Shown: positions 7,176-48,149 of the stretch, piece after piece
How the letters are laid out: the number at the start of each line of letters is the position of its first letter
Position numbering within the stretch: the stretch's first letter is position 1
NCBI RefSeq assembly: GCF_009848505.1
Contig: NZ_WWDL01000018.1
Coordinates: forward strand, 1-64,000
Direction: 5' to 3'
DNA: 64,000 bases
DNA from: Muricoccus harenae
GTDB taxonomy: Bacteria > Pseudomonadota > Alphaproteobacteria > Acetobacterales > Acetobacteraceae
Position numbers and translations under genes: made by a program
The notes under the pieces: model-generated
Seen by the model: the letters and a program-made list of their open reading frames with translations, nothing else
What the model was told of the DNA's origin: nothing
Database searches by the model: none

Positions 7176-7204
7176 TGGCGCCGGGGCGGCCTCGTCCCTA
7201 GATT
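7176..7204 (+). promoter_or_regulatory. Predicted promoter of the 6S RNA
   Basis: TGGCGC (7176-7181), a 17-base spacer and TAGATT (7199-7204) resemble a sigma-70-type promoter. The predicted start seven bases later falls at about 7211, exactly where the closing stem of the RNA begins. A similar arrangement with the same CCTAGATTG core precedes the gene at 39557, which supports it as a real -10 type in this genome. Confidence 0.5.
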
Positions 7205-7210
7205 GGGTGG

Positions 7211-7364
7211 GCGGGGCTGCCTTTCGCGCCAGGCAAATCATCCCCAGGGCCAATAAGCATCCTCCGGGAGCTGGCTCTGTCCGGACCCTGGTCCGGGTAA
7301 CTGGTGCCCACCTGCGCTAGCAGGCCTTGGGAGGACGAATCGCCAGCGGTCATGGCGGCTCCGC
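7211..7364 (+). ncRNA. ssrS: 6S RNA (candidate, RNA polymerase regulator)
   Basis: The interval between zapA and the folate cyclo-ligase is the conserved place for 6S RNA. The sequence folds accordingly: closing stem GCGGGGCTGCC (7211-7221) with GGCGGCTCCGC (7354-7364), 11 pairs including two G-U; an inner helix CCCCAGGG with CCTTGGG; an apical hairpin CCGGACC/GGTCCGG; and a short hairpin CCTGC-GCTA-GCAGG on the 3' side of the central bubble, as described for alphaproteobacterial 6S RNAs. The length, about 154 nt, fits. 6S RNA mimics an open promoter and traps the housekeeping holoenzyme in stationary phase. The ends are estimated from the fold; the 3' arm overlaps the start codon of the next gene. 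Confidence 0.72.
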
Positions 7365-7981
7365 ACTTACCCCCCTTTCCGGACGGGTCCCCAGCGGGGG
7401 ACGACGCCCGTCTTCGCGCGGCCAAGATCGTGGCGCGCGAAGAGGCGCAGGCGCGGCGTGCCTCGGCGCAGGCTGCGGGCACGGGCGTGGCGCTTTGCGC
7501 GCATGTGCTGCGCGATGCGCCGCCGCCGCCGGGCGCGGTGGTGGCCGGCTTCTGGCCCATGGGACATGAAATCGACGTGCGGCCGCTGATGCGGGCGCTG
7601 GAGGCGCGTGGGCATCAATTGTGCCTGCCGCGCACGCCCAAGCGTGGGCTGCCGCTGGATTTCCGCGCCTTCGCCTTCGGGAATGCCATGGCCAAGGGGC
7701 CTTTCGGCACGCTGCAGCCGCCGCCCGAGGCGCCACCCGTGGTGCCGGGCTGGGTGATCGTGCCGTTGCTGGCGTTCGATCGCGCGGGGCGCCGGCTGGG
7801 CTATGGCGGCGGATATTACGACCGGACGCTGGCGGCTCTGCCTGGCGTGCGGACGCTTGGCGTGGCCTTTGCCTGCCAGGAGATGGAGAAGGTGCCCGCC
7901 GGCCGCTTCGACGCGCCGCTGGATGCGGTGGCGACGGAGCAGGGCGTGGTGCGGTTCCGCGGGGAAGGTTTGAGCGGTTGA
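7352..7981 (+). CDS. 5-formyltetrahydrofolate cyclo-ligase
   Basis: 209 residues from ATG 7352 (MAAPHLPPFPDG). It converts 5-formyl-THF to 5,10-methenyl-THF using ATP. Seen: an N-terminal basic segment (AREEAQARRAS), VAGFWPMGHEIDVRPL, QLCLPRTP, and the signature VPLLAFDRAGRRLGYGGGYYDRTL carrying the phosphate/substrate loop. The start overlaps the closing stem of the 6S RNA, so the true start may be slightly downstream (for example GTG in AKIVAREE); E. coli also transcribes ssrS together with the homologous ygfA. Its stop TGA overlaps the next gene's TTG start. Confidence 0.88.
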   Translation: MAAPHLPPFPDGSPAGDDARLRAAKIVAREEAQARRASAQAAGTGVALCAHVLRDAPPPPGAVVAGFWPMGHEIDVRPLMRALEARGHQLCLPRTPKRGLPLDFRAFAFGNAMAKGPFGTLQPPPEAPPVVPGWVIVPLLAFDRAGRRLGYGGGYYDRTLAALPGVRTLGVAFACQEMEKVPAGRFDAPLDAVATEQGVVRFRGEGLSG

Positions 7982-40702: not shown

Positions 40703-42139
40703 ATGGCCGAGCGCATGCTGCAATTCGTCCGTCTTTCCCAGCAGACGCCGGAGAAGCGTGAGGCGACCATCCGTCGCGAGGATTTCGACGAGATCTACGC
40801 CCGCTTCGATCCGGCGCGTGCATCCGAGCAGGCTAGCCGCTGCAGCCAATGCGGCATTCCCTTCTGCTCCGTGCATTGCCCGTTGCAGCAGAACATCCCT
40901 GACTGGCTGAAGCTGACGGCCGAAGGGCGGCTGGAGGAGGCCTATGAGGTCAATTCCGCCACCAACACCTTCCCCGAGATCTGCGGCCGCGTCTGCCCGC
41001 AGGACCGGCTTTGCGAGGGCAACTGCGTCATCGAGAAGGGCTTCGAGGCCGTCACGATCGGCGCGGTGGAGCGCTATATCAACGACACCGCCTGGGATAA
41101 GGGCTGGGTGAAGCCGCCGAAGCCGCCGCGTGAGCTGGAGCATTCGGTGGGCATCATCGGCGCGGGCCCCGCGGGGCTGGCGGCGGCGGAGCGGCTGCGC
41201 AGCATCGGCTGGCAGGTGCATGTCTATGACCGCTACGACCGCGCCGGCGGGCTGATGATCTATGGCATCCCCAACTTCAAGCTGGAGAAGGATGTCATCA
41301 CGCGCCGCACCGCGCAGTTCGCGGAGGGCGGCATCCATTTCCACATGAACTGCGAGATCGGGCGCGACGTGACCGTCGCGGAGCTGCGCGAGAAGCATGA
41401 TGCGGTGCTGATCGCGACCGGCGTGTACAAGGCGCGCGATATCGAGGTACCGGGCTCGCATCTCGACGGTGTGGTTCCGGCGATGTCCTTCCTCACCGCC
41501 TCCAACCGCAAGGGGCTGGGCGACGCGGTGCCGGAGTTCGAGAGCGGGGCACTGAACGCGGCCGGAAAGCGCGTGGTGGTGATCGGAGGCGGCGACACGG
41601 CGATGGACTGCCTGCGCACCTCGATTCGCCAGGGCGCGGCCTCCGTCACCTGCCTCTATCGCCGCGACAAGGCGAACATGCCGGGCTCGATGCGCGAGGT
41701 TTCCAATGCGGAAGAGGAGGGCGTGCGCTTCGCCTGGCTTTCCGCACCGGAAGGCTTCGAGGGCGAGGGTTCCGTCACGGGCGTGCGCGTGACGAAGATG
41801 CATCTCGGCCTGCCGGATGCGACGGGGCGACAGCAGGTGGATCCGCTCCCGGGCAGCTCCTTCGTGGAGCCGGCGGATCTGGTGATCAAGGCGCTGGGCT
41901 TCGACCCCGAGGACCTGCCGACCATGTTCGGCGAGCCGGGGCTGAAGGTTTCCCGCTGGGGCACTCTGGGTGTGGACCGGCGCAGCATGATGACGAGCCT
42001 GCCGGGCGTCTTCGCCGCGGGCGACATCGTGCGCGGCGCCTCTCTGGTGGTGTGGGCGATCCGGGACGGGCGCGATGTCGCGGACCGCATCGCGGAATAT
42101 GTCCAGGCGCGGGATTCCGTGCCGCAGGCGGCTGAGTGA
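40703..42139 (+). CDS. gltD: Glutamate synthase small subunit
   Basis: 478 residues. The GltD beta subunit supplies electrons from NADPH through FAD. N-terminal Cys clusters CSQCGIPFCSVHCPLQ and CGRVCPQDRLCEGNC (about 45-115) bind two [4Fe-4S]; VGIIGAGPAGLAAAERL binds FAD; VVVIGGGDTAMDC binds NADPH; GVFAAGDIVRG near the C-terminus is also FAD-binding. A candidate -10 (TATACT 40584-40589) lies upstream. The stop overlaps a GTG at 42136, but the real gltB start is 42154. Confidence 0.94.
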   Translation: MAERMLQFVRLSQQTPEKREATIRREDFDEIYARFDPARASEQASRCSQCGIPFCSVHCPLQQNIPDWLKLTAEGRLEEAYEVNSATNTFPEICGRVCPQDRLCEGNCVIEKGFEAVTIGAVERYINDTAWDKGWVKPPKPPRELEHSVGIIGAGPAGLAAAERLRSIGWQVHVYDRYDRAGGLMIYGIPNFKLEKDVITRRTAQFAEGGIHFHMNCEIGRDVTVAELREKHDAVLIATGVYKARDIEVPGSHLDGVVPAMSFLTASNRKGLGDAVPEFESGALNAAGKRVVVIGGGDTAMDCLRTSIRQGAASVTCLYRRDKANMPGSMREVSNAEEEGVRFAWLSAPEGFEGEGSVTGVRVTKMHLGLPDATGRQQVDPLPGSSFVEPADLVIKALGFDPEDLPTMFGEPGLKVSRWGTLGVDRRSMMTSLPGVFAAGDIVRGASLVVWAIRDGRDVADRIAEYVQARDSVPQAAE

Positions 42140-42153
42140 GCGGAGGAAGCAGC

Positions 42154-46671
<4,518 letters not shown>

Positions 46672-46679
46672 GGCTTCCT

Positions 46680-46706
46680 GGCCGCCGCCCTGGTTACGCG
46701 GCGGCC
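46680..46706 (+). terminator. Hairpin at the gltB end, possible terminator
   Basis: GGCCGCCGC (46680-46688) pairs perfectly with GCGGCGGCC (46698-46706) just after the gltB stop. No T run follows. It overlaps the end of the convergent cyclase-like gene, so it may act on both transcripts. Confidence 0.45.
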
Positions 46707-47392
46707 GGATTGCCTCCGGGCTTGGCGGCATAGGTGAAGTTGCCGCTGCCGTCATAGGGCCAGTGCAGGACGTAGCGGCCGTAATAGGCCTGGCAGGCCG
46801 CCATGCCGTCGAGATAGGTGGCCTCACCTTCGCGGAAGGCGGCGAAGCGGGTTTCGGCTGTCACGCCGGGGTGCTTCTTGCCGATGGGCGGCGTGAAGTC
46901 GTCCTGCGCGCCGTGCTGCAGCTTGCTGCGCAGCACGGTGTTGAGCAGGCGCACGGCATCCCGCGCGGCCTTGCTCCAGGCGCCGCGTTCGGCGCCGGGG
47001 GTGAGGGCCGAGGCGAAGAGTTTTTCATAGCCGCCCGGGCCCTTCCGCCACAGGCTCATCAGGTCATAGTCGGAGACGAACATGCGGCCGGTCTCCGGAT
47101 GGACGCCGATGCCGCTTTCGCCGGACTTGACGGTGCGGCCGGCGCTGTCATGGCCATCGGCCCAGCGCTTGGGCGGCAATTCGCCCTGGAAGGCGACGGC
47201 GCCGCGCTTGGGGCAGCGCATCACCACTAGCAGCCCCTGCCTCCGGGTCACCAGACGGAAGGCTGCCACGTCCTCGGGAGCCAGGTCGCTCCGCTTGGCG
47301 AAGCGCAGGTCATCGTCGCCCACCCCGGCACGGCCGGCATCGCGCAACCTCGCGAAGACGGCGGCTTCGGCGATGGAGACTTTGAGGGTCAT
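46694..47392 (-). CDS. Edema-factor-like (class II) nucleotidyl cyclase candidate
   Basis: 232 residues with no signal peptide or membrane segment. Several short motifs match the catalytic core of edema factor, CyaA and ExoY: LLVVMRCPKR (R59, like the EF R329 region); RTVKSGESGIGVHP (K89, like the catalytic lysine of KSSDWGP); SDYDLMSLW (D108 and D110, the metal-binding DxD); and AVRLLNTVLRSKLQHGAQDDF (H160 and D164/D165, like HGTEQDN). The order of motifs agrees, but the roughly 108 residues between DxD and HG in CyaA shrink to about 50 here and no calmodulin- or actin-binding part remains. A compact cyclase (cAMP or another cyclic nucleotide) is inferred; activity is unproven and the match is by eye. 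Confidence 0.6.
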   Translation of the reverse strand: MTLKVSIAEAAVFARLRDAGRAGVGDDDLRFAKRSDLAPEDVAAFRLVTRRQGLLVVMRCPKRGAVAFQGELPPKRWADGHDSAGRTVKSGESGIGVHPETGRMFVSDYDLMSLWRKGPGGYEKLFASALTPGAERGAWSKAARDAVRLLNTVLRSKLQHGAQDDFTPPIGKKHPGVTAETRFAAFREGEATYLDGMAACQAYYGRYVLHWPYDGSGNFTYAAKPGGNPAAA

Positions 47393-47480
47393 GATCGTTT
47401 CTCCTTCAGACCATATTAGCCTTGCGCAATGCGGGCGCCAACGCTTGCGCGGGCCGACAGGGCTGGCATAAGCCGCCGCC

Positions 47481-48149
47481 GTGCGTATCCTCCATCACCT
47501 CCCGCTCTCCCCCGCCTGCCGAAAGGTGCGCCTGGCGCTTCATGAGAAGCGTATCCCCTTCGAGCTGCATGCGGAGCGGATCTGGGAGCGCCGGGAAGAG
47601 TTCCTGGCGATGAATCCCGCCTGCACCGTGCCGGTGCTGGAGGAGGAGAACGGGCTGGTCGTCGCGGACAGCTACGCGATCTGCGAGTATCTCGACGAGG
47701 CCTATCCCGATATGCCGCTGCTCGGCCGCACCCATGCGGAGCGGGCCGAGGTGCGGCGGCTGGTCGCCTGGTTCGATGACAAGTTCGAGCGCGAGGTGAC
47801 GCGCAACCTGTATTACGAGAAGCAGCTGAAGCGCGTTCTTGGCCGCGGCAACCCAGATGCGGGGGCACTGCGCGCCGGCTATGCCAATATCAAGCCGCAT
47901 CTGGAATATATCGGCTGGCTGGCCGAGACGCGGGCCTGGCTGGCGGGCGGGCAGATCTCGCTGGCCGACCTTGCCGCGGCGGCGCATCTCTCCTGCCTGG
48001 ATTATATCGGCGATGTCGATTGGTCGCTGAATGATGCGGTGAAGGACTGGTATGCGCGGGTGAAGTCGCGCCCGGCCTTTCGCTCGATTCTGGCGGACCG
48101 GGTCAGCGGGCAAACGCCGCCGGCACATTACGCCGACCTGGATTTTTAG
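47481..48149 (+). CDS. fzlA: FzlA, GST-fold FtsZ-binding division protein
   Basis: 222 residues from GTG 47481. It has a glutathione S-transferase fold (N-terminal thioredoxin-like part LPLSPACRKVRLALHEKRIPF, C-terminal helical part) and the FzlA-specific stretches YYEKQLKRVLGRGNPDAG, LAAAAHLSCLDYIGDVDW and VKSRPAFRSILADRVSG. In Caulobacter FzlA bends FtsZ filaments and is essential for constriction. Divergent from the cyclase candidate with 88 bases between the starts, so they might share control. Confidence 0.88.
   Translation: MRILHHLPLSPACRKVRLALHEKRIPFELHAERIWERREEFLAMNPACTVPVLEEENGLVVADSYAICEYLDEAYPDMPLLGRTHAERAEVRRLVAWFDDKFEREVTRNLYYEKQLKRVLGRGNPDAGALRAGYANIKPHLEYIGWLAETRAWLAGGQISLADLAAAAHLSCLDYIGDVDWSLNDAVKDWYARVKSRPAFRSILADRVSGQTPPAHYADLDF

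Follow-up and report, generated by a model that had tools for sequence, protein, structure and literature searches.

A compact protein family of Muricoccus harenae and its relatives resembling the catalytic core of class II nucleotidyl cyclases

The first 64,000 nucleotides of contig NZ_WWDL01000018.1 of Muricoccus harenae (Acetobacteraceae; assembly GCF_009848505.1), referred to here as the window, contain a gene between gltB and fzlA that encodes a protein of 232 residues. We read this protein, with a probability of about 0.5, as a compact enzyme that acts inside the cell and is built around the CA catalytic core of the class II nucleotidyl cyclases (the anthrax edema factor EF, CyaA and ExoY), in which the CB/LID part is cut to a short loop. 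The relationship in fold, judged from predicted structures, is very probable; cyclase activity, as far as sequence and models indicate, is closer to an even call. Four features of class II were found (predicted fold, DxD, histidine and motif I) and three were absent (profile similarity, LID and the switch-B asparagine), and the family looks like a sister family that shares the CA core and is not filed as a member of PF03497. A sequence-only reading had matched the protein to the cyclase family by eye, allowing that it may be a distant fold relative without activity; residue conservation and the predicted fold bear this out, whilst the PF03497 profile and the switch-B asparagine, absent in 30/30 homologs, do not.

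Conserved residues and their spacing

Of 237 background open reading frames (ORFs; from a simple caller, spurious frames included), 28 contain the loose pattern R..K..DxD..H, as do 504 of 5000 shuffles of the protein. The by-eye motif match taken alone is therefore weak evidence, hardly above chance, which is why relatives were collected; conservation and fold are stronger. A profile search of 397 genomes of the same family (33 matched) was combined with a genome-contig scan, which found five Belnapia/Craurococcus loci and one metagenome-assembled genome (MAG) of Alsobacter (Hyphomicrobiales). After merging identical proteins, the aligned set comprises 30 distinct, complete-looking proteins. 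Dropped before this count were L016 and L047, whose frames are partial or split, L018 (a duplicate of the window), and L019 and L020 (chance matches, see below). L017, a match in genome G102 (E 5e-4, two stops) that the profile did not recover, also stands outside it, as do G913, G861, G1355 and G1416, which had no aligned locus or were found later. In three of the 33 matching genomes, G035, G861 and G1027, every copy as matched is partial or split.

The residues named in the sequence-only reading (R59, K89, D108, D110, H160 and D164) all lie at the positions claimed, and in the alignment these candidate catalytic residues rank among the most conserved of the protein. D108, D110 and H160, whose free variation among orthologs would have spoken against the assignment, are invariant in 30/30. 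The full invariant set is D41, R59, P61, G70, K75, D108, Y109, D110, M112, N151, H160, G161, D164, D165, G189, Y204 and Y213; K62 is kept in only 21/30. K75 had been overlooked; its spacing makes it the strongest candidate for the role of main catalytic lysine. It follows R59 by 16 residues, compared with 17 in the toxins. The structural alignment to EF begins with residue 27 at EF 297, which would place residue 59 at EF 329 if ungapped; the rows for ExoY and CyaA deviate from this by two residues. In the candidate switch-B motif, H160, G161, D164 and D165 are present in 30/30 and Q163 in 26/30.

Published positions give R-17-K-7-K for ExoY and EF (PMC9223806, PMC10553838). In the family the R–K spacing is 16 (range 16–19) and the K–K spacing ranges from 7 to 15, being 7 in 16/30 members and 14 in the window protein. 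A spaced pattern, R-16/17-K-7-K..DYD..HG, was found in 0/237 background ORFs, 0/5000 shuffles and 16/30 family members; it was devised after the family had been seen, and the window protein lies outside the 16 because of the 14-residue K–K gap in its branch. ExoYs carry an extra lysine (K86) five residues past the first (PMC10553838); 8 of the 16 members whose K–K gap is 7 residues have it too, including L006 and L011, and the window protein lacks it.

The sequence-only reading had also described the interval from DxD to HG as shortened to roughly 50 residues from 108. The first figure is confirmed, H160 lying 50 residues past D110 in the window protein (family range 46–55, median 50); the second is presumably that of CyaA. 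Published positions for Pa-ExoY, EF and Vn-ExoY give 77–86 residues from DxD to histidine, and 124–138 from the second lysine to DxD (PMC9223806, PMC10553838), in contrast to 17–37 for the latter in the family (median 18, window 19). As the LID of ExoY is the segment between motif I and DxD (K86–M209; PMC10553838), it is the LID that is missing from the family; switch A, which lies between DxD and the histidine, is probably shortened as well, to go by these intervals. L045, L046 and L048 exceed the median by 15–19 residues in the stretch from the second lysine to DYD, at the position of the toxins' LID.

Predicted fold and profile searches

Structural realignment of the predicted folds lists EF, CyaA and ExoY almost exclusively: they make up 18/19 and 17/19 of the matches listed for the two models, which are of moderate confidence and cover the CA part only. 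The family resembles these toxins in its predicted CA-type fold, in the order of the arginine, the two lysines, DxD and the histidine, and in a nearly identical motif-I spacing; it differs in lacking a profile match, a LID-sized segment and the switch-B asparagine, and no sign of secretion was seen.

Several observations weigh against the cyclase reading. No PF03497 match was found at E<=10 for the window protein, for sets of 14 and 10 members (partly overlapping) or in the window's own genome, a search that could miss very weak similarity, since most matches above about E 0.1 do not pass the HMMER filters. The profile-similarity test failed, possibly through loss of the LID, but the failure stands. 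Foldseek gave no match at E<=0.001 in either search; a proteasome chain headed one list and LINE-1 ORF1p the second, and the cyclase rows had probabilities of at most 0.51 among the matches listed. Model confidence was modest (predicted local distance difference test scores, pLDDT, of 64.7 and 67.4) and low in the active-site loops, and both models were built on the same seven sequences. The LID residues that close the toxin active site are missing, and the switch-B asparagine (H+6) is replaced in 30/30 (F 16, W 12, Y 1, L 1); in EF, mutation of this asparagine is reported to cost at least two orders of magnitude (PMC10553838). The family loci also hold no pointer to cyclic nucleotide (cNMP) signalling.

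A viral-structure search had no match at E<=0.001, and sequence searches of the PDB returned one antibody at E 0.039 and later none. Weak Pfam matches in members (DUF6489 at E 5e-4, below cut-off, in 2/14 members; the rest at E>=0.02) were taken as chance, for DUF6489 only tentatively, as was an NCBIfam match at E 0.17 in 1/8 members. At L011:1453-2097 the DUF6489 match (E 5e-4, under cut-off) covers residues 62–130, the K..DYD region.

Proposed chemistry and alternative readings

If the protein is a cyclase, D108 and D110 together with H160 would hold Mg2+, whilst R59, K75 and K89 would hold the triphosphate of a nucleoside triphosphate (NTP), the 3'-OH of which would attack the alpha phosphate to yield a 3',5'-cyclic nucleotide and pyrophosphate. 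Without the lid and the full cofactor switches, the enzyme would need no eukaryotic activator and would work in the bacterial cytosol, and its product would feed the cell's own cNMP-binding proteins. The window's genome encodes one class III cyclase (PF00211) and four cNMP-binding domains, which could read such a product; no link was seen. One cNMP-binding domain (2445-2696 on contig C13 of this genome, G000) lies about 4.5 kilobases from the only PF00211 match (7184-7684). The reaction would possibly be the one catalysed by class III adenylyl and guanylyl cyclases, whose fold is unrelated (PMC9223806).

The main doubt concerns the chemistry: with the lid and the asparagine gone, the core might carry out another NTP reaction. 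The same fold and ancestry could serve an Mg-NTP enzyme acting as a nucleotidyl- or phosphoryltransferase or as an NTP hydrolase, a reading we regard as the less likely but most serious alternative. It accommodates the loss of LID and asparagine in all 30 homologs alongside the retained metal and phosphate residues and the invariant D164 and D165; on the other hand, the arginine, both lysines, DxD and histidine are kept in near-toxin order with near-toxin motif-I spacing, and a second, substrate-binding domain was not found in the members scanned.

We consider it improbable that the protein is an effector or interbacterial toxin delivered by a secretion route that went unseen. A 2022 review describes class II as comprising only cyclases secreted by bacteria (PMC9223806), the distribution of the family is sporadic and an HlyD-family gene adjoins the homolog at locus L056. 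Against this, no hydrophobic N-terminal signal was seen by eye, PADLOC had no match in 8/8 members, and 17 of 19 neighbour proteins scanned with Pfam matched metabolic, regulatory, peptidase, transport or other enzyme families, with no named toxin or immunity family among the 19 (other neighbours were judged by eye only); the gltB-fzlA position, moreover, recurs in at least three genera, among proteins as little as 43% identical. That the protein is unrelated to cyclases, its motif a matter of chance and its fold match an artefact of low-confidence models, is similarly improbable, given that one fold family fills both realignment lists well above the other rows, that the spaced motif is absent from the background ORFs and shuffles, and that the signature residues are the invariant ones.

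A broader version of the cyclase reading, which we hold tentatively, is that the family represents a non-toxin, LID-less class II branch inside free-living bacteria, serving as their own cyclic-nucleotide enzyme without a eukaryotic activator; it would be either the minimal starting point of the toxins or a reduced, domesticated derivative of them. Relatives in structure have a precedent outside the toxins, since a 2023 structural clustering describes an unannotated Anthrax_toxA-like cluster with algal proteins that partly matches the edema-factor domain (PMC10584675); both groups are unannotated, the algal one is eukaryotic, and they are likened here by description only. Among the matches listed in a literature search whose scope excluded preprint servers and most subscription journals, none was noticed that describes a bacterial class II cyclase without secretion or without the LID. 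If the cyclase reading is true, this type of enzyme also exists as an ordinary bacterial enzyme, Belnapia-like bacteria gain a candidate signalling enzyme, and an intracellular branch that keeps the main catalytic residues but lacks both the LID and the switch-B asparagine would make it easier to separate catalysis from toxin-specific control and would bear on the origin of the cyclase toxins.

Gene, neighbours and distribution

The ORF is real and lies on the minus strand, which the sequence-only reading had not given (Table 1). Its GC content equals that of the window (0.695) and dN/dS, the ratio of nonsynonymous to synonymous substitution rates, is 0.11–0.38 among 6 copies (15 pairwise comparisons); it is thus a gene under purifying selection. 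The identity of the neighbour named as fzlA is borne out by a profile match above cut-off, and the two start codons are 88 base pairs (bp) apart. A pattern search of 46500-47700 gave neither a sigma-70-type promoter nor a terminator.

Table 1. Positions of the gene, its candidate catalytic residues and its neighbours in the window
Feature	Position	Strand	Basis
LID-less class II cyclase-like protein, coding sequence	46694..47392	-	232 residues, stop included; ATG at 47392-47390
R59 codon, candidate phosphate-binding arginine (EF R329 / ExoY R64)	47216..47218	-	30/30 conserved; spacing
K75 codon, candidate main catalytic lysine (EF K346 / ExoY K81)	47168..47170	-	30/30 conserved; spacing
K89 codon, candidate second lysine (EF K353 / ExoY K88)	47126..47128	-	29/30 conserved
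D108-Y109-D110, candidate metal-binding DxD (EF D491/D493)	47063..47071	-	all three 30/30
H160-G161-x-Q163-D164-D165, candidate switch-B motif (EF H577 / ExoY H291)	46898..46915	-	conservation
fzlA, divergent neighbour	47481..48149	+	NCBIfam NF050814 'FtsZ-binding protein FzlA', 310.6 vs cut-off 300 bits
gltB, glutamate synthase large subunit, convergent neighbour	42136..46671	+	Pfam domains

The protein family is largely confined to the taxonomic family of the window in the samples searched. The order sample matched in 28/395 genomes, all 28 in the window's family, the number of other families in that sample not being shown. The class sample (2/385) and the phylum sample (2/398) each matched the window's own genome and one locus taken as chance: L019, with three internal stops and within an apparent pseudouridine synthase gene, and L020, within an apparent asparaginase gene (both names by eye). 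In the family of Alsobacter, 1/199 genomes matched, that of Alsobacter itself, and its MAG is the only carrier found outside the window's family in these samples and the contig scan. The nearest named homologs of the window protein are from Belnapia (Roseomonadaceae, Acetobacterales, Alphaproteobacteria in the NCBI taxonomy) and Craurococcus. Plasmids, phages and viral contigs gave no accepted match, the viral-contig scans depending on short peptide patterns; a phage match at E=7 and PHROG matches at E 0.007–0.54 (2/8 members) were taken as chance, and a phage or plasmid origin was rejected.

Ordinary metabolic genes surround many family loci. The 30 distinct proteins fall into 9 at gltB-fzlA, 12 at lpd-lipA-ratA, 2 between an FAD-linked oxidase and a beta-lactamase-like gene, and 7 elsewhere. 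The nine gltB-fzlA members are those of the window, of Belnapia/Craurococcus and of the genus of G028, G115 and G907, in which tblastn showed fzlA. As the order also occurs in this further genus, with a protein only 43% identical, the position probably dates back a long way, with frequent loss of the gene; transfer from one genus to another at that site may be an alternative. Within the window's genus, a family member occurs in 2/15 genomes: that of the window and G1050, whose diverged protein is encoded at another, unrelated locus near LysE-type and AraC-type genes (L065:7395-8096). The gene is absent from the site in 14/14 other genomes of the genus, where the gltB-fzlA gap is 143–189 bp between aligned ends. 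Several of these 14 gaps (L070–L083; window 46671-47480) hold a GC-rich palindrome, by eye a possible terminator. The suggestion that the gene is controlled next to a division gene therefore does not hold in general, fzlA adjoining only 9/30 loci, and the division link was rejected as a general one.

At L063:1290-4496 and L064:5732-8915, the homolog has lpd ahead of it and lipA behind it, all on one strand, and the ORF calls leave 3 bp between it and lipA, which suggests co-transcription with pyruvate-dehydrogenase/lipoate genes. Both main locus types have a glutathione-transferase-like gene near the family member (FzlA in the window; L051:6736-7425 and L063:5987-6649), possibly by coincidence; for the protein of the second locus type, the matches to NCBIfam glutathione transferase models were all below cut-off.
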